Under the pieces are notes generated by a model that was given only the letters and a program-made list of their open reading frames with translations, made no database searches and was not told where the DNA came from. Both the position numbers and the translations under genes were made by a program. Shown in pieces: positions 5,817 to 19,641 of a DNA stretch of 20,970 bases (position 1 is its first letter; each line of letters begins with the position of its first letter). This DNA comes from a virus: the IMG/VR virus record IMGVR_UViG_3300035181_000791, positions 1 through 20,970 of that record; one strand, written 5' to 3'.

Positions 5817-7232
5817 TTAGCCCTGATCGCCCGCTTCGGGGAATAGGTCGTCGCCGATTTCAACGTCGCCGCAGGCTTCGACGGCCTTTCGGGGGTCGCC
5901 TTTGCAGAAAACAAGCAGGTTCTGATGGGTCTTGCCCAGCTTTCGGCTGGTGCTGAATTGCTTCCCGGCCCGGATCGGCAGGCTGCCGACCATCGTGACC
6001 AAAATTGCTTCGTTGTAGTAGTCCAGCCCGGCTTCGCGGAACGCCTGAACGGTATCGCCTACGAAGTCGTAATACGCGCCCCGCTTGTCCCGAACCTCGC
6101 CGACAACGAAGGCGGCGAAGCGGTCTTGTTTCAGCAGGCCGCAAGCCCGCTTGATGATGTCGAAATAGGCCGCCCGGAAGTCTTCATAGGCCAGCGTCGA
6201 AAGGTCGGCTGGGTCGTCCGAATAGACCTCAAGGTCGGCATAGGGCGGGCAGGAAAACAGGAAGTCAGCCTGCAAGCCATTGCAAGTCTTGTCGATGTTC
6301 CGGCTGTCGCCGCAATGCCAGACGGGGACGGGATCGCCTTCGCCAAGGATTTCGGCCTGCGCCCGGTTCGCTTCGACCTGTTCTTTCCGCAGATCGCTGC
6401 CGACGTACTGGCGGCCCAGCTTGGCGGCGACAAGGCCGCGAACGCTGCCCCCGGCGAACGGGTCAAGGATGACGCCGCGCGCAGGGCTGAACCAGCGATA
6501 GGCCAGTTCGCATAGAACCGGGTCGAAGATGCTTGTCCCGCTTTGGCCGCTGGCGTTGCCTTCCGTCCCGAAGGTCGTAGCAAGCCGTTTTCCGGCCCCG
6601 TTGCCGCGTTCCTTGGCGCTGTAGTCGGCTGCCGGTCGCGGGCTGCCGCCGGGCGAACCGTTCGCGCCCCGGCCAAGTTCTGACCGAATGCCAAGCGTGA
6701 TCCATGCGTTCTTCCGATCCTGCCACCATCCTTCGCGGGCGTTCAGGACGCTGAACGGGGCGACCATGAAGCGGTCGGCAAGGCTGCCGGTTCCGCCTTC
6801 GTCCGATCCATCGCCGGAACCTTCTGGCGGCAGCAGGTCGGCCAGTTCGTCGCCGCTGAACCCGATCAGATCAAGGTCGAAGCCGTCGTCCCGCAGTTCG
6901 CCAAGTTCCAGCGCCAGCAGTTCGTCGTCCCAGCCAGCGTTCAGCGCCAGCTTGTTGTCGGCGATGATGTAGGCCCGCTTCTGCGCGTCCGACATGTAGG
7001 CAAGTTCGATGACCGGGACTTCATCCAGCCCCAGCTTCCGGGCTGCAAGAACGCGGCCATGACCGGCGATCAGACCGCGCTGACCATCAACAAGGACAGG
7101 GTTTGTGAAGCCGAATTCTCTGATGCTGGCCGCGATCTGCGCCACCTGTGATTCGGAGTGAGTCCGGGCGTTGTTGATGTAGGGGATCAGCGAATCGACG
7201 GACAGGTATTCAACGCGAAGTTTTTCAAGCAT
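5817..7232 (-). CDS. ParB-like N-terminus fused to a DNA methyltransferase
   Basis: A 471-aa fusion. Residues about 8-100 are a ParB/Srx-type domain with the box GLIAGHGRVLAARKLG and the downstream IIADNKLAL motif, typical of phage ParB-methylase fusions. Residues about 235-445 are a class I SAM-dependent methyltransferase: motif I DPFAGGS (257-263) and a catalytic motif IV written SCPPY (327-331), where DPPY or NPPY is usual. Motif I comes before motif IV, the reverse of the beta-class order. The middle (140-230) is Gly/Ser-rich and probably a linker plus a target-recognition part. It starts 8 nt inside the end of the upstream HNH gene, so the two are coupled. A likely role is modification of phage DNA before packaging, protecting it from host restriction; the base modified is not known. 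The adenine or cytosine-N4 class is inferred from the PPY motif. Confidence 0.85.
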   Translation of the reverse strand: MLEKLRVEYLSVDSLIPYINNARTHSESQVAQIAASIREFGFTNPVLVDGQRGLIAGHGRVLAARKLGLDEVPVIELAYMSDAQKRAYIIADNKLALNAGWDDELLALELGELRDDGFDLDLIGFSGDELADLLPPEGSGDGSDEGGTGSLADRFMVAPFSVLNAREGWWQDRKNAWITLGIRSELGRGANGSPGGSPRPAADYSAKERGNGAGKRLATTFGTEGNASGQSGTSIFDPVLCELAYRWFSPARGVILDPFAGGSVRGLVAAKLGRQYVGSDLRKEQVEANRAQAEILGEGDPVPVWHCGDSRNIDKTCNGLQADFLFSCPPYADLEVYSDDPADLSTLAYEDFRAAYFDIIKRACGLLKQDRFAAFVVGEVRDKRGAYYDFVGDTVQAFREAGLDYYNEAILVTMVGSLPIRAGKQFSTSRKLGKTHQNLLVFCKGDPRKAVEACGDVEIGDDLFPEAGDQG

Positions 7233-7731
7233 GGATGGAACCCCACGATTTTCCGTTTAGCAGGTTTCTGATTGCCCAACGGGACACGCCGAACATTCTG
7301 GCGAAGCCTGTAAGCTCTCCGCGCTTGCCTGTGTAGCTGGTCTTGACGTGAGCGACCTGCTGGTCAGTCATTTTTGCGATATAGACCTTTTCGCCCATAG
7401 GCTGCGTACCGTGCAGCTTCTTGTGGGCGTTGTTCTCGGTCGGGGTGGCCCACATCAGGTTTCCGGCCTGATTGTTTGCTGCGTTGCCGTCTCGGTGCGC
7501 CACTTCATGCCCGTCAGGCTGCGGGCCAATGAAAGCCAGAGCGACAAGGCGATGAACCTTGACCGTCTTGTAGCGGTTCGCGCGCCACAGATTGACGCGG
7601 CGGCGACCCCATTCATCAACCGAAGGCGAGAGGATGCGGCCAGAATCTACGCGCCGCACCTGCCCCAAGTCCGAAACCTCATACTCGGGGAAGTCAGGAA
7701 CAGCCTTCCAGTTTTCGGGGTTTGTTTTCAT
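7225..7731 (-). CDS. NUMOD4-HNH endonuclease
   Basis: A 168-aa free-standing HNH nuclease. The start NWKAVPDFPEYEVSDLGQVRRV is a NUMOD4 motif. The HNH core follows with VHRLVALAFIG, then HEVAHRDGNAANNQAGNLMWAT and NNAHKK. The C-terminus (TDQQVAHVKTSY...FARMFGVSRWAIRNLLNGKSW) is a helix-turn-helix DNA-binding module. I start it at the ATG at 7731 because NUMOD4 begins there; the longer frame to 7836 would translate through hairpins and a 13-bp repeat. The ribosome-binding site is weak. It may be a homing-type selfish gene, or, given its place next to terminase, a packaging accessory as known for the HNH protein of HK97. The sequence does not decide between these. Confidence 0.85.
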   Translation of the reverse strand: MKTNPENWKAVPDFPEYEVSDLGQVRRVDSGRILSPSVDEWGRRRVNLWRANRYKTVKVHRLVALAFIGPQPDGHEVAHRDGNAANNQAGNLMWATPTENNAHKKLHGTQPMGEKVYIAKMTDQQVAHVKTSYTGKRGELTGFARMFGVSRWAIRNLLNGKSWGSIHA

Positions 7732-7753
7732 AGGCGGGAGAAATAGCCCTGCA

Positions 7754-11893: not shown

Positions 11894-12157
11894 TCATTCC
11901 CCCGCCTCCAAGGCGTCCTTGGCGAGCAATCGAAGCGCGTCCAGCTTTGCCCGGCTGATGCGCACGTCATCGCCTTCCTGCGACCAAACATCCAAGCCGA
12001 GCGCCCGCAGGAAATCGCCCAGCCGTTCAAGCGGGACGCCCTGATTGCCGGACAGAATCCGCGACACGGTGCAAGCCTTCATTCCGGCTTTGTCCGCGAC
12101 GGCTTCCTGCGACAACTGAGCAACCCGATGCCGGATTAGCGCTTCGACGCTATGCAT
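11894..12157 (-). CDS. CII-like transcriptional regulator
   Basis: An 87-aa helix-turn-helix protein. Residues about 12-45 (VAQLSQEAVADKAGMKACTVSRILSGNQGVPLERLGDFLRALGLDV) match the CII/XRE pattern, followed by a helical tail (ISRAKLDALRLLAKDAL). Length and position between cro and the O-like gene match lambda cII. It would activate repressor and integrase synthesis on infection and favour lysogeny. GGGGGAG lies 6 nt before the ATG at 12157. I did not find a convincing paired TTGC site, so target promoters are unknown. A generic XRE regulator is the alternative. Confidence 0.72.
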   Translation of the reverse strand: MHSVEALIRHRVAQLSQEAVADKAGMKACTVSRILSGNQGVPLERLGDFLRALGLDVWSQEGDDVRISRAKLDALRLLAKDALEAGE

Positions 12158-12208
12158 AGCTCGCTCCCCCTTGCTCGCGCCTGTCCCTAAAGTTCGATGC
12201 AGGCAAGG

Positions 12209-12412
12209 TCATGCAGCGGCTGCCCCGAAGATTTCAGGGCGAAGTTCTTGGCGGGTGACTTGGCCGTCGGTGGCCTTCTCGATTTCTATGGCCCGTTCGG
12301 CGGTTATCCGGGTCTTCCCGGTCACCCACTGATGGACAAGCCCTTGCGTGACGCCAAGGCGGTGCGCCAGATCGGTTTGCGTCGTCTTCTGTAGGTAGGT
12401 TTTCAAGTCCAT
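12209..12412 (-). CDS. cro: Cro-like repressor
   Basis: A 67-aa helix-turn-helix protein, close to lambda Cro (66 aa). The motif is TQTDLAHRLGVTQGLVHQWVTGKTRITAERAIEIEKATDG, typical of Cro/YdaS-type proteins in which helix 2 and recognition helix 3 are well defined. I start it at the ATG at 12412, with GAGG 9 nt upstream; an in-frame ATG at 12439 falls at the predicted transcription start and is less likely. It is divergent from the CI-type repressor across a 113-bp control region. It would repress the repressor promoter and tone down early transcription during lytic growth. Confidence 0.85.
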   Translation of the reverse strand: MDLKTYLQKTTQTDLAHRLGVTQGLVHQWVTGKTRITAERAIEIEKATDGQVTRQELRPEIFGAAAA

Positions 12413-12445
12413 TGCTAATTGCCTCAACTGGATAAGCATGGGCGA

Positions 12446-12474
12446 ATAATAGCAATGCTTATGCGCTGACGCAA
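12446..12474 (-). promoter_or_regulatory. Cro/early promoter (PR-like)
   Basis: Minus strand: -35 TTGCGT (12474-12469), exactly 17-bp spacer, -10 TATTAT (12451-12446). Transcription would start near 12439 and read cro, the cII-like gene and the replication operon. The spacer contains the palindromic operator candidate AGCAATGCT, so repressor binding would block it. Confidence 0.7.
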
Positions 12475-12486
12475 TAGCGGCGGTGT

Positions 12487-12515
12487 TTGTGCGGCAATAG
12501 CTGCGTTAATAGAAT
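12487..12515 (+). promoter_or_regulatory. Repressor maintenance promoter (PRM-like)
   Basis: Plus strand: -35 TTGTGC (12487-12492), 17-bp spacer, -10 TAGAAT (12510-12515). The expected start, near 12522, is only about four bases before the repressor ATG at 12526, so the message may be nearly leaderless, as is lambda PRM mRNA. The second GCAATAGC copy (12494-12501) lies in the spacer. Confidence 0.55.
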
Positions 12516-12525
12516 GGGAAGAATC

Positions 12526-13230
12526 ATGGCAAAACAACGACGCGAACTAACTGACGACGAGCTGCGGGACGCCGAACGGCTGCGGGATGCGTGGGAGCGA
12601 TACAAGATCGCAACCCCAAGCGCGACGCAGGAGTCGGTCGCGTTCGCATGCGGATGGAAGACCCAAGGCGCGGTCAGCCAGTATCTGCGCGGGGTAATCC
12701 CTTTGAACCTTGACGCCCTGTTGAAATTTTCCGGGGTCTTCGGGGTCGCCCCCCAATCGATAAGCCCGCGATTGGCCCAAAAGATCGTCGGGGTTCCTGC
12801 CGGGGAAGTTGGGCAGTCTGACAATGTTCATCCGGGGCCGGAAATTCGCGGCAAGGTTCCGCTGATTTCATGGGTTCAGGCGGGCGACTTCGCCGAAGTC
12901 GTCGATCTGCTGCATCCCGGCGAAGCCTTTGAATGGATCGAAACGACTGTCCAGCCGCGCGTCCATACCTTCGCGCTACGGGTGCATAACGATTCAATGG
13001 AACCCGACTTCCCAGCGGGGACGATACTGATTGTCGAACCAGAACTGGACGCCCATGCTGGGGATTTCGTCATCGCCAAGAACGGCGACGAAGAAGCGAC
13101 CTTCAAGCAGTTGGTCAGGGACGGCGGCGATTGGTATCTGAAACCGCTGAACCCGCGCTATCCATTGAAGCCGCTGGCCGGTTGCCAAGTCGTCGGCGTC
13201 GTTCGTGCTGCGGAGCGGCGCTTTAGATGA
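12526..13230 (+). CDS. cI: CI/LexA-type prophage repressor
   Basis: A 234-aa repressor. The N-terminal domain (residues about 10-80) is a helix-turn-helix with SATQESVAFACGWKTQGAVSQYLRG and the CI-like segment IPLNLDALLKFSGVFGV. The C-terminal half (about 110-230) is a peptidase S24 self-cleavage domain: cleavage site A119-G120 in SWVQAGDF, nucleophile S157 in HNDSMEPDF and K194 in ATFKQLVRDG. It keeps the prophage silent and is expected to self-cleave when RecA is activated. I use the ATG at 12526 because the upstream part of the frame lacks homology and contains the promoter. Its stop overlaps the next ATG (ATGA), so the nuclease gene is expressed with the repressor in lysogens. Confidence 0.95.
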   Translation: MAKQRRELTDDELRDAERLRDAWERYKIATPSATQESVAFACGWKTQGAVSQYLRGVIPLNLDALLKFSGVFGVAPQSISPRLAQKIVGVPAGEVGQSDNVHPGPEIRGKVPLISWVQAGDFAEVVDLLHPGEAFEWIETTVQPRVHTFALRVHNDSMEPDFPAGTILIVEPELDAHAGDFVIAKNGDEEATFKQLVRDGGDWYLKPLNPRYPLKPLAGCQVVGVVRAAERRFR

Positions 13231-13991
13231 GCGTGACAGCCATATTCACGTATTCGACCCTATTTGTTTTCGCCGTCATCCTTGGCGGCTATTTCGAGTC
13301 GTGGGCGCTGTTCATTTTCAGCATGCTGATCGGTGGCGGCATTATCCACAAATCAAACAAACAGGTTGAAGAAGAACAGTTCAACAAGGCCAAAAGGGTC
13401 ATAGCAGAGCATTCCAATGAACTGAAGATCAGGCGCAACCAATTGTCCGTTCGCATGAACTATGGTCTGGTCGATGACGACAAGTGGAAGAAGGAAGTCG
13501 AAGTCTTCGTCGCCCGCGTCATCGCCCCTGTGGCTGGATGGCTTGATCCGTTCGGCAAGAACTACTCCCGCGTCAGGGACGAAATCGAACAGGTGACAAG
13601 CGACTTCCAAGCATCATCTGTTGCTTTCTCAAGCGAGATTTCGCCGATTGAATATGAACAGCTTGTCGCCAACGTCCTTCAAGAACATGGGTGGAACACG
13701 CGGCTGACAGCAGCGACCGGCGATCAAGGGATCGATGTCATCGCAGAAAAGCAGGGCGTGAAGGTTGTAATCCAATGCAAGCTGTACTCAAACCCGGTCG
13801 GAAATGCCGCCGTCCAAGAAGCCATAGCTGGAAAGTCATTTGAGCGCGCAGACTTTGCGGCAGTGGTAACGAATGCAGGATTTACCCGCGCCGCCAGACA
13901 GCTTGCGTCATCGTCAGGGGCGTTTCTGCTGCACCATGACCAACTTTGCGACCTAGAAGATATGTGCGGAATCGCCCCCCGATCCGCATAG
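13227..13991 (+). CDS. Membrane-anchored Mrr-type restriction endonuclease-like protein
   Basis: A 254-aa protein. Residues about 5-40 form one or two hydrophobic membrane segments (IFTYSTLFVFAVILGGYF, then WALFIFSMLIGGGII). Residues 41-130 are charged and helical. Residues about 138-235 are an Mrr-type PD-(D/E)xK nuclease domain: SPIEYEQLVANVL, GDQGIDVIAE (D170) and VVIQCKLY (Q183-x-K185), with the VVTNAGFT strand near the end. All expected catalytic residues are present. Its ATG overlaps the repressor stop, and a strong terminator follows, so it is a two-gene lysogenic transcript, the position of rexAB in lambda. Lower-GC, more varied codons than its neighbours suggest acquisition. A role in excluding other phages or plasmids is inferred; no methylase partner is adjacent. 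Confidence 0.85.
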   Translation: MSVTAIFTYSTLFVFAVILGGYFESWALFIFSMLIGGGIIHKSNKQVEEEQFNKAKRVIAEHSNELKIRRNQLSVRMNYGLVDDDKWKKEVEVFVARVIAPVAGWLDPFGKNYSRVRDEIEQVTSDFQASSVAFSSEISPIEYEQLVANVLQEHGWNTRLTAATGDQGIDVIAEKQGVKVVIQCKLYSNPVGNAAVQEAIAGKSFERADFAAVVTNAGFTRAARQLASSSGAFLLHHDQLCDLEDMCGIAPRSA

Positions 13992-14015: not shown

Positions 14016-14040
14016 AAACCCGCCGCGAGCGGGTTTTTTT
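14016..14040 (+). terminator. Intrinsic terminator after the cI-nuclease operon
   Basis: Plus strand: 8-bp perfect stem AAACCCGC/GCGGGTTT (14016-14023, 14029-14036), 5-nt loop, and a run of seven T (14034-14040). It closes the lysogenic transcript and insulates the PL-like promoter downstream. Confidence 0.9.
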
Positions 14041-14088
14041 GCGTCCGCAGTAGCCCTCCTATTTCCGTTGCAGACCGCAGTCAGCAGA

Positions 14089-14136
14089 AAATATTAGCAA
14101 TGCTCTTGCCTCAAGAAAGAAGCGCTGCTAATATTT
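14089..14136. promoter_or_regulatory. OL-like operator: two inverted 16-bp sites
   Basis: The left site 14089-14104 and the reverse complement of the right site 14121-14136 both begin AAATATTAGCA and agree at 14 of 16 positions; the outer 11 bp are perfect. Centres are 32 bp apart, about three helical turns. The left site includes TAGCAATGCT, identical to 12450-12459 in the cI-cro region. The right site covers the -10 of the PL-like promoter. Repressor or Cro binding is inferred. Confidence 0.7.
14106..14134 (+). promoter_or_regulatory. Early rightward promoter (PL-like)
   Basis: Plus strand: -35 TTGCCT (14106-14111), 17-bp spacer, -10 TAATAT (14129-14134). It would start near 14141 and drive the small early genes and the recombination operon. 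It is embedded in the inverted operator pair, so it should be off in lysogens. Confidence 0.7.
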
Positions 14137-14142
14137 GCTCAT

Positions 14143-14160: not shown

Positions 14161-14182
14161 GGAACCAACCTAGGAGATCGCC

Positions 14183-14410
14183 ATGCAAAACGCTAATGTC
14201 CATCCGGTCTTCGCCGAAGTCTTGGGGCAATTCGCTGCCATCCCGCAGCAGGTTGCCGCCGCCCGCGCCGTCAAGTGCCGGGTAACGGTCAAGACCGAAG
14301 ACGGCGAACAGACCTATGTCGGCCTGTTCCCCAGCACTTGCGACGCGGTAATCGACGCAGCCGAGCGCGTCGGCCAGCCCTGCAAGGTCAGCGCGAGGGC
14401 CGTCAAATGA
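14183..14410 (+). CDS. Small early phage protein
   Basis: A 75-aa protein, first gene after the PL-like promoter. AGGAG lies 6 nt before the ATG at 14183. The C-terminal 45 residues (KCRVTVKTEDGEQTYVGLFPSTCDAVIDAAERVGQPCKVSARAVK) form a compact beta-alpha-beta pattern that I recognise from short early proteins of Burkholderiales-type phages, without known function. The first 28 residues are helical and uncharged. It is not arginine-rich, so an N-type antiterminator is unlikely despite the position. Its stop overlaps the next ATG. Confidence 0.75.
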   Translation: MQNANVHPVFAEVLGQFAAIPQQVAAARAVKCRVTVKTEDGEQTYVGLFPSTCDAVIDAAERVGQPCKVSARAVK

Positions 14411-14496
14411 AGAAGTTCGTCGCCGATTTCCTTTACTACGTCCGCCGGGGCTATGGCCTGCGCAAGTCGTGGAATCTCGCAAGGGTGACGCTATGA
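14407..14496 (+). CDS. Very small basic protein (29 aa)
   Basis: The frame begins at an ATG overlapping the previous stop (ATGA) and ends overlapping the next ATG (CTATGAG). The product MKKFVADFLYYVRRGYGLRKSW... is basic (KK, RR, RK) with an aromatic patch. The chain of ATGA overlaps on both sides is the main reason to believe it is translated. Function is unknown; an RNA- or membrane-binding peptide is possible. Too short for homology from sequence alone. Confidence 0.5.
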   Translation: MKKFVADFLYYVRRGYGLRKSWNLARVTL

Positions 14497-14594
14497 GCCA
14501 GTTCAACGCGAACCCGATGCCGTCGCTGGAATACCTGCGCGAATGCTTCGCGCTGGACATGTCATTCGGCGCTTTTGCAGGGGGTGCGAAATGA
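14493..14594 (+). CDS. Short ORF, possible HNH endonuclease N-terminal remnant
   Basis: A 33-aa frame, coupled by ATGA overlaps to the 29-aa gene before and the 121-aa gene after. The segment MPSLEYLRECFALDMSFGAF resembles the first 20 residues of phage HNH-AP2 endonucleases, which usually run LEYLRECF.LD..SG.L.W. The rest of such a protein is absent, so this may be what remains after deletion. It could also be an independent small protein. The resemblance is from memory and short. Confidence 0.4.
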   Translation: MSQFNANPMPSLEYLRECFALDMSFGAFAGGAK

Positions 14595-18745: not shown

Positions 18746-18946
18746 ATGGACGCGCAAGCAAAAATCATCCGTCTGCCGAAGGTCAAGGAATTGGTCGGCC
18801 TTGGCAAGACAGCGATCTACGACAAGATCAAGGAAGGGGATTTCCCTAAGCCGATCAAGCTGGGCCGCGCAAGCGGCTGGCTTGAAGGCGATGTGCAGCA
18901 ATGGATCGGCCAGCAGGTCGAACATCAGCGGGGGGTTGCAGAATGA
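18746..18946 (+). CDS. AlpA-family DNA-binding protein (possible excisionase)
   Basis: A 66-aa protein with the MerR-like helix-turn-helix of AlpA: IIRLPKVKELVGLGKTAIYDKIKEGDFPKPIKLGRASGWLEGDVQQWI. Length and motif fit the family. AlpA proteins regulate P4-type integrases and excision, and this gene lies three genes before an integrase of that class. It could be the recombination directionality factor acting on the repeats at 20028-20287, which is inference. A GAGG-like site precedes the ATG at 18746. The 35-nt gap after ssb has no terminator. The stop overlaps the next ATG (ATGA). Confidence 0.82.
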   Translation: MDAQAKIIRLPKVKELVGLGKTAIYDKIKEGDFPKPIKLGRASGWLEGDVQQWIGQQVEHQRGVAE

Positions 18947-19641
18947 CCAAGAAGAAAACCGAAGCTGTCGATCCGATCACTTCCTTCAAGGGGTTCGACA
19001 AGAATTGGCAATGCCTAGGGTATCAATTCAAGGTCGGGGAATCCTATCAGCACGACGGCAAGGTCAAAGCCTGCGAATCTGGTTTCCACGCCTGCGAATA
19101 CCCGCTTGATGTGTTCAGCTACTACCCGCCCGCTGGCAACCGATTCGCAGTCGTCCAGCAGTCCGGCGAACTGAGCCGCCACGATGGCGACACAAAGGTC
19201 GCAAGCAAGTCGCTTTCGATCATGGCCGAAATCAGCATCGCGGGCCTTGTGAAAGCCGCCATCGAATACACGACCAGCCGCTGCAAACCTGTCGATCCTG
19301 ATTCACCTTCCAGCAGCACCGGGGATTACGGCGCGGCCAGCAGCACCGGGGATTACGGCGCGGCCAGCAGCACCGGGGATTACGGCGCGGCCAGCAGCAC
19401 CGGGACTCGCGGCGCGGCCAGCAGCACCGGCAAGCATTCTGTCGCCATGTCCTGCGGTTATCAGGGCCGCGCGATGGCTGGCGATACCGGGGCAATCGTT
19501 CTTGTGTTCCGCGACGATGACGACAACATCATCCATATCCGCGCCAGCAAGGTCGGTGAAAACGGGATCAAGGCAGGGGTCTGGTACATGCTGGATGCGG
19601 ACGGCCAGTTCGTAGAAGCAGAAGACGAAGGGGAAGAATGA
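18943..19641 (+). CDS. DUF7666-like protein with tandem nonapeptide repeats
   Basis: A 232-aa protein. Residues about 12-105 (ITSFKGFDKNWQCLGYQF, GFHACEYPLDVFSYYPP, RFAVVQQSGELSRHDGD) match a domain I know as DUF7666, found in phage and bacterial proteins of unknown function; the name is from memory. Residues about 122-165 are nine-residue SSTGDYGAA units, three identical and two variant, likely a short beta-solenoid. The C-terminal 60 residues (GAIVLVFRDDDDNIIHIRASKVGENGIKAGVWYMLDADGQFVE) form a beta-rich cap. The ATG at 18943 overlaps the AlpA stop. Function is unknown. Confidence 0.8.
   Translation: MTKKKTEAVDPITSFKGFDKNWQCLGYQFKVGESYQHDGKVKACESGFHACEYPLDVFSYYPPAGNRFAVVQQSGELSRHDGDTKVASKSLSIMAEISIAGLVKAAIEYTTSRCKPVDPDSPSSSTGDYGAASSTGDYGAASSTGDYGAASSTGTRGAASSTGKHSVAMSCGYQGRAMAGDTGAIVLVFRDDDDNIIHIRASKVGENGIKAGVWYMLDADGQFVEAEDEGEE
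19312..19434. repeat. Tandem 27-bp repeat inside a coding gene
   Basis: Units start at 19312, 19339 and 19366 (identical), 19393 (variant in the middle) and 19420 (partial). The 27-bp period is in frame, giving nine-residue SSTGDYGAA repeats. Identity at DNA level, including silent positions, points to recent duplication, so copy number probably varies between relatives. Confidence 0.9.

Follow-up and report, generated by a model that had tools for sequence, protein, structure and literature searches.

The gene at 13227 to 13991 (+ strand) encodes a 254-residue protein of a phage-borne, mostly membrane-anchored family of Mrr-type PD-(D/E)XK nucleases, which recurs in two cargo slots, behind repressors and beside tape-measure genes. 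We analyzed the gene in a stretch of viral DNA of 20,970 nucleotides (IMG/VR record IMGVR_UViG_3300035181_000791), hereafter called the window. The assignment draws on Pfam and an AlphaFold2 model. Defence or exclusion is the likely role of the gene. Our preferred reading, held with moderate confidence, is that lysogens express a membrane-tethered nuclease which protects them by cutting DNA on entry and discriminates self by location. In the open-access literature, we found no report of an Mrr-type nuclease in this arrangement.

The window protein has three parts, a hydrophobic N-terminus, a helical middle domain, and a nuclease domain. The hydrophobic N-terminal segment (residues 3-41; 13233 to 13349, + strand) was already part of the original prediction. 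It diverges fast, shows two hydropathy peaks of about 2.0 on the Kyte-Doolittle scale, and is followed by a K/H-rich sequence whose positive residues are predicted to lie on the cytoplasmic side. One or two membrane passes are predicted; AlphaFold2 draws a single long helix (residues 4-61) despite the two peaks, so the number of passes is left at one or two. The middle domain (residues 42-136; 13350 to 13634, + strand) carries conserved H62, L66, Y79-G80, W87, E90, and F94, with the conservation of Y79 and W87 partly imposed by our selection of family members. Predicted alone, this domain reached a pLDDT of 91.6, and a Foldseek search of the PDB with it gave nothing better than E 3.8, a result that does not by itself make the fold new. 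The nuclease domain (residues 137-243; 13635 to 13955, + strand), delimited by Pfam, contains E144, D170, Q183, and K185. Its match to Pfam Mrr_cat (PF04471) is far beyond chance, with an E-value of 2.6e-24, a score of 86 bits against a curated cut-off of 21, and coverage of profile positions 3-114 of 115. The AlphaFold2 model of the protein, built on an alignment of 54 sequences, has a mean pLDDT of 90.7. The nuclease part of the model matches PD-(D/E)XK enzymes, including AF1548 (Z 12.9 over 105 residues, 2.8 Å), EndoMS, Can2, MspJI, AspBHI, and Holliday-junction resolvases.

A nuclease fold with intact D170, Q183, and K185 had been predicted, and these residues are identical in all 197 relatives aligned over the site, as is E144 in 196 of 196; catalytic residues are therefore not commonly missing from homologues. 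Because the searches were seeded on peptides that contain D170 and exclude E144, Q183, and K185, the conservation of the latter three is fair evidence. The Mrr_cat profile was matched by 58 of 58 relatives. Mean identity to the window protein across the family is 14% in the N-terminal part, 25% in the middle part, and 53% in the nuclease part. A strong predicted membrane segment is missing in 16 of 54 members (about 30%), and some tape-measure-adjacent copies (L040 and L201) also seem to have none. Single-sequence scans of viral and genome contigs found no close relatives, and alignment queries recovered the family; the window DNA had no match among phage records. Only 2 of 369 genomes in the class of a Bordetella relative contained the full family at E 1e-20, so it is sparse in that class. 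The profile of RRG7 (required for respiratory growth protein 7) was matched by 16 of 58 relatives, at best with 1.4e-6, which hints at a connection with a eukaryotic family.

In E. coli Mrr, the catalytic domain is Mrr_cat, and the PADLOC mREase_IV models match the window protein at about 1e-7. The protein could then be a type IV (modification-dependent) restriction enzyme that recognizes modified bases in foreign DNA, with the membrane segment merely aiding placement. The lack of a methyltransferase in the nuclease transcript would suit such an enzyme. MspJI and AspBHI among the structural matches are modification-dependent, but nuclease folds are widely shared and the matches are uninformative on modification. 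Pfam searches gave no Mrr_N match at E up to 0.1 (window protein) or 0.01 (58 relatives), thresholds that a very diverged copy could escape, and they found no other known modification-reading domain in these proteins. The middle domain has no PDB match that could supply one, and a broad methyl-dependent nuclease would need to tolerate the phage's own ParB-type methyltransferase. We consider modification-dependent restriction unlikely.

That methyltransferase had itself been suggested as a distant partner of the nuclease. Its gene (5817 to 7232; N6_N4_Mtase 1.2e-7, and ParB_N 4e-5, below the curated cut-off) is on the opposite strand at a distance of about 6 kb, and a ParB-methyltransferase gene was seen beside the nuclease gene in one relative only (L022). 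We dropped the partnership for want of linkage. A NUMOD4-HNH endonuclease gene (7225 to 7734) adjoins the methyltransferase gene. Elsewhere in the window, 18901 to 19641 encodes a DUF7666 protein with internal SSTGDYGAA repeats.

The nuclease gene occupies the immunity region of the phage. Upstream is a cI-type repressor gene with an S24 peptidase domain (12529 to 13230, + strand; Pfam Peptidase_S24 7.4e-27), whose stop codon overlaps the nuclease start in ATGA at 13227-13230, as had been noted before. A Cro-like gene (12209 to 12439, - strand; YdaS_toxin/HTH_3, Pfam 1.1e-20) diverges from cI. Between cro and cI lies an operator-like site, AATAATAGCAATGCTTATGC (12445 to 12464, + strand), which is conserved in a related viral contig (L159). 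A second operator-like region (14090 to 14139, + strand), made up of AATATTAGCAATGCTCTTGC and an inverted copy at 14121-14139, precedes the RecT/YqaJ/SSB operon. The direct repeats at 12445-12464 and 14090-14109 are 85% identical over 20 nt. Their 11-nt core, with up to 1 mismatch, occurs in the window only at these two sites, against 0.19 occurrences expected by chance, and two or more occurrences appeared in 3 of 100 shuffles. By these matching repeats on both sides, cI and the nuclease gene are bracketed as cI-rexBA is in lambda, with the second region resembling oL. The terminator proposed after the nuclease gene corresponds to a hairpin with a T-run at 14016 to 14036 (+ strand), the sole one in the region. 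Similar patterns also arise in shuffles (mean 2.9), so its placement rather than its mere presence is the evidence, and L159 has a comparable hairpin and T-run at the same place.

With this arrangement, the nuclease gene would be lysogenic cargo of a temperate phage, co-transcribed with the repressor. A search for a sigma-70 consensus promoter of cI found none, and a lysogenic promoter that escapes detection would suit an inert passenger with little or no expression and no function in the lysogen. The reading frame is nevertheless open, the active-site residues are conserved in all aligned relatives, and the gene recurs behind unrelated repressors. These observations make an inert passenger very improbable.

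The L159 contig indicates that the contents of this slot are exchanged. Its CI is 75% identical to that of the window, and the two DNA sequences align collinearly at 77% over window positions 11916 to 13212. The similarity stops 18 nt short of the cI end and returns at 14088-14134 (87%, the operator region) and at 14173-14499. In place of the nuclease, L159 encodes a 129-residue protein with a zinc ribbon and a membrane segment. Collinearity on both flanks with a different membrane protein between them means, as read from the sequence comparison, that the position behind cI is an exchangeable cargo slot. The slot had been likened to that of lambda rexAB, and both the bracketing operator-like repeats and this swap of contents agree with the comparison. 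Next to less similar CI proteins, the slot product is a pilin-like protein in L162, a small lipoprotein-like one in L163, and a further zinc-ribbon membrane protein in L160; L161 showed no comparable gene behind a similar repressor. The products of the slot genes in L159, L160, L162, and L163 likewise seem directed to the membrane or envelope. Tried as a further marker of this slot, the L159 cargo protein turned up, among viral contigs, in its own contig only. An L159-like zinc-ribbon membrane protein is encoded in L080 (7221-8663), after a large gene resembling a tape-measure gene and two genes from an Mrr copy that seems to be frameshifted. At 52.5%, the window nuclease gene is lower in GC than most of its neighbours (60-62%), which fits later acquisition.

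The original prediction also proposed looking for Mrr genes next to repressors in other phages, and we found that the arrangement recurs. The closest viral relative (L010; 53% identity over residues 55-244) directly follows a repressor gene and has its own hydrophobic N-terminus. Its repressor is a different one, a short HTH protein that lacks S24 and has a weak PHROG match (8.5e-4). In Roseburia phage Jekyll (L009), the gene order is an Xre-like gene, a putative toxin component, the nuclease, an HslV-like protease, and an integrase. An iterated search with the window CI gave few relatives and no adjacency, and we used broader HTH/ImmA detection and Pfam tallies instead. For the neighbour statistics, 103 viral contigs were collapsed to 62 clusters, with random genes drawn from the same loci as controls. 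On average, the same-strand gene directly upstream encodes a repressor or ImmA in 8.3 of the 62 clusters against 1.6 for random genes, an enrichment of about fivefold that none of 5000 draws reached and that is inflated by the detector profiles for repressors, ImmA, and tape-measure proteins, which were seeded with genes found beside Mrr. The Pfam tallies are independent of these seeds; upstream neighbours included M78 in 5 of 59 and HTH_3 in 5 of 59, whereas downstream neighbours included M78 in 1 of 60 and S24 in 1 of 60, with no HTH_3 listed.

The company of regulatory genes also bears on abortive infection, in which an infection signal would release or activate the nuclease, host DNA would be destroyed, and the cell killed. 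RexAB kills through the membrane, and the window gene sits in the same slot as rexAB. In STAND NTPase systems, the effector can be an Mrr-type domain (PMC9122126), and the upstream ImmA-type or HTH genes of Firmicutes-like relatives could be sensors. The window operon, however, contains no sensor gene or antitoxin, and the nuclease is a single gene with a membrane part. In addition, 7 of 11 putative-DNase systems studied by Vassallo et al. gave direct immunity and not abortive infection (PMC9519451). We regard killing of the infected cell as improbable for the window gene.

The second cargo position is beside tape-measure genes. The nuclease gene directly adjoins a tape-measure gene in 7.7 of the 62 clusters against 2.4 for random genes (P 0.0006), an enrichment of about threefold that is likewise inflated by the seeded profiles. 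PHROGs, a check that is also independent of the seeds, gave strong tape-measure calls for the large neighbours in L011, L012, L013, L015, L018, L023, L187, L191, and L197 and weak calls in L040 and L201; the neighbour in L016 was called a lytic tail/tape-measure protein, and those of L031, L035, and L080 were not recognised. Where the two genes are directly adjacent in the listed cases (0-60 nt apart), they always lie on opposite strands; the nuclease gene thus diverges from the tail operon, the arrangement that a separately transcribed moron would have. The window nuclease gene itself does not adjoin a tape-measure gene.

Several other features accompany these loci. A small signal-peptide protein is often encoded beside the nuclease (L011-L013, L015, L016, L018, L020, L023, and L026) and might be a periplasmic partner; no such gene accompanies the window copy. 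A compact relative of about 177 residues, with a hydrophobic hairpin and an Mrr domain and no middle domain, occurs in L185-L188, L191-L205, and L222-L232. In these viral contigs, which come from related metagenomes, its gene stands head-to-head with a tape-measure gene, often near a small secreted protein. In L018 (2305-11065), the nuclease and its neighbours lie between two near-identical genes for 479-residue transposase-like proteins; this segment beside the tape-measure gene may be a mobile cassette.

Many relatives are encoded on chromosomes, with no recognisable phage context, and such chromosomal copies are common in Methylobacterium and other Alphaproteobacteria. In a Rickettsiales genome, one relative (L081, 7893-8687) lies inside an apparent Fe-S cluster set in the order iscS, iscU, iscA, nuclease, hscB, and hscA. 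Given the chromosomal relatives, defence need not be the sole role of the family. The window protein might accordingly be a DNA-processing enzyme of the phage cycle or of housekeeping, for example one that resolves or trims DNA at the membrane. The conserved neighbourhoods of chromosomal relatives in Methylobacterium and elsewhere speak for such a function, as does a fold common to Holliday-junction resolvases and EndoMS. Yet the gene is swapped in and out of one slot in otherwise collinear phages, is coupled to the repressor and not to the RecT, exonuclease, or SSB genes, and has a low GC content against its neighbours. We therefore find a processing role improbable for the window gene.

In the mechanism that we propose, a single membrane-tethered PD-(D/E)XK protein would cut phage DNA, and perhaps plasmid DNA, during entry at the inner membrane. 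Tethering there would be the main reason why the host chromosome and the resident prophage are spared, and the variable N-terminus and middle domain may steer it to the entry site or the injection machinery. SNIPE provides a precedent, being a membrane-bound nuclease that cuts phage DNA during injection and is toxic without its membrane anchor (Saxton et al., PMC13190303). Its conservation rises from the N-terminus to the nuclease (PMC13190303). Two prophage proteins, TP-J34 Ltp and HK97 gp15, prevent DNA injection, and phages escape them through changes in the tape-measure protein (PMC10883804). From the conservation gradient, the SNIPE precedent, and these injection-blocking proteins, we infer action at entry and an involvement of the tape-measure protein. 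Two means of discrimination had been suggested. The anchored N-terminus, the relatives beside tape-measure genes, and SNIPE favour DNA entry at the membrane; recognition of DNA modification is the less likely of the two, and no Mrr_N recognition domain was found.

A broader proposal is tentative and, in our view, somewhat doubtful. The family may represent a second, independently evolved form of entry-site immunity, in which phage-borne anchored PD-(D/E)XK nucleases recognise the injection machinery and cut DNA in transit. Their place behind the repressor or beside the tape-measure gene of the carrier phage would let exclusion specificity move together with that phage's injection protein. If this is true, membrane location, and not DNA sequence or modification, would be a rule for telling self from non-self that has arisen more than once and that phages use against each other. 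It would also provide a defined gene set for the hunt for exclusion nucleases, behind repressors and beside tape-measure genes, and would make tape-measure proteins testable as a general target. Finally, it would help explain how a restriction-type nuclease can reside in a prophage that has no protective methylase.

Several known systems resemble the window protein in part. The C-terminal Mrr-like domain of Zorya ZorD matches it (4.5e-16) at profile positions 942-1059 of 1071 only; ZorD has an SWI2/SNF2 helicase and works with the ZorAB motor, whereas the 254-residue window protein has neither helicase nor ZorAB, and the lack of a helicase part ruled it out as ZorD. The PADLOC candidate PDC-S02 is matched at 1.1e-14 over C-terminal positions 173-304 of 334 only. 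E. coli Mrr shares the Mrr_cat domain and the lack of a cognate methylase, but it has Mrr_N where the window protein has a hydrophobic anchor and an unclassified helical domain. With lambda RexAB, the gene shares its place between cI and the second operator, the coupling to the repressor, and a membrane component; it differs in being one protein and a nuclease. Neither Pfam nor PHROGs matched the window protein to RexA or RexB, and it was ruled out as a Rex protein. Mycobacteriophage Panchino, cited in PMC7542560 for single-subunit prophage restriction, is alike, by the description given there only, in a restriction-type defence from a prophage accessory region. HK97 gp15 and TP-J34 Ltp are also prophage-borne membrane or surface proteins, which stop DNA injection (PMC10883804). 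They act on the products of tape-measure genes, the genes that relatives of the window gene adjoin, but they contain no nuclease, and the window copy is in the repressor operon. The window protein is not SNIPE, since it has no DUF4041 and its nuclease is Mrr_cat and not GIY-YIG; DUF4041 had no match in 58 family members at E 0.01. SNIPE combines DUF4041 with a GIY-YIG nuclease unrelated to the PD-(D/E)XK Mrr_cat domain, and the window gene, known here from its sequence, sits behind a temperate-phage repressor. The two nevertheless share a single-gene design with an N-terminal membrane anchor (predicted in the window protein), a middle domain, and a C-terminal nuclease, a conservation that rises toward the nuclease, and a predicted discrimination by location.
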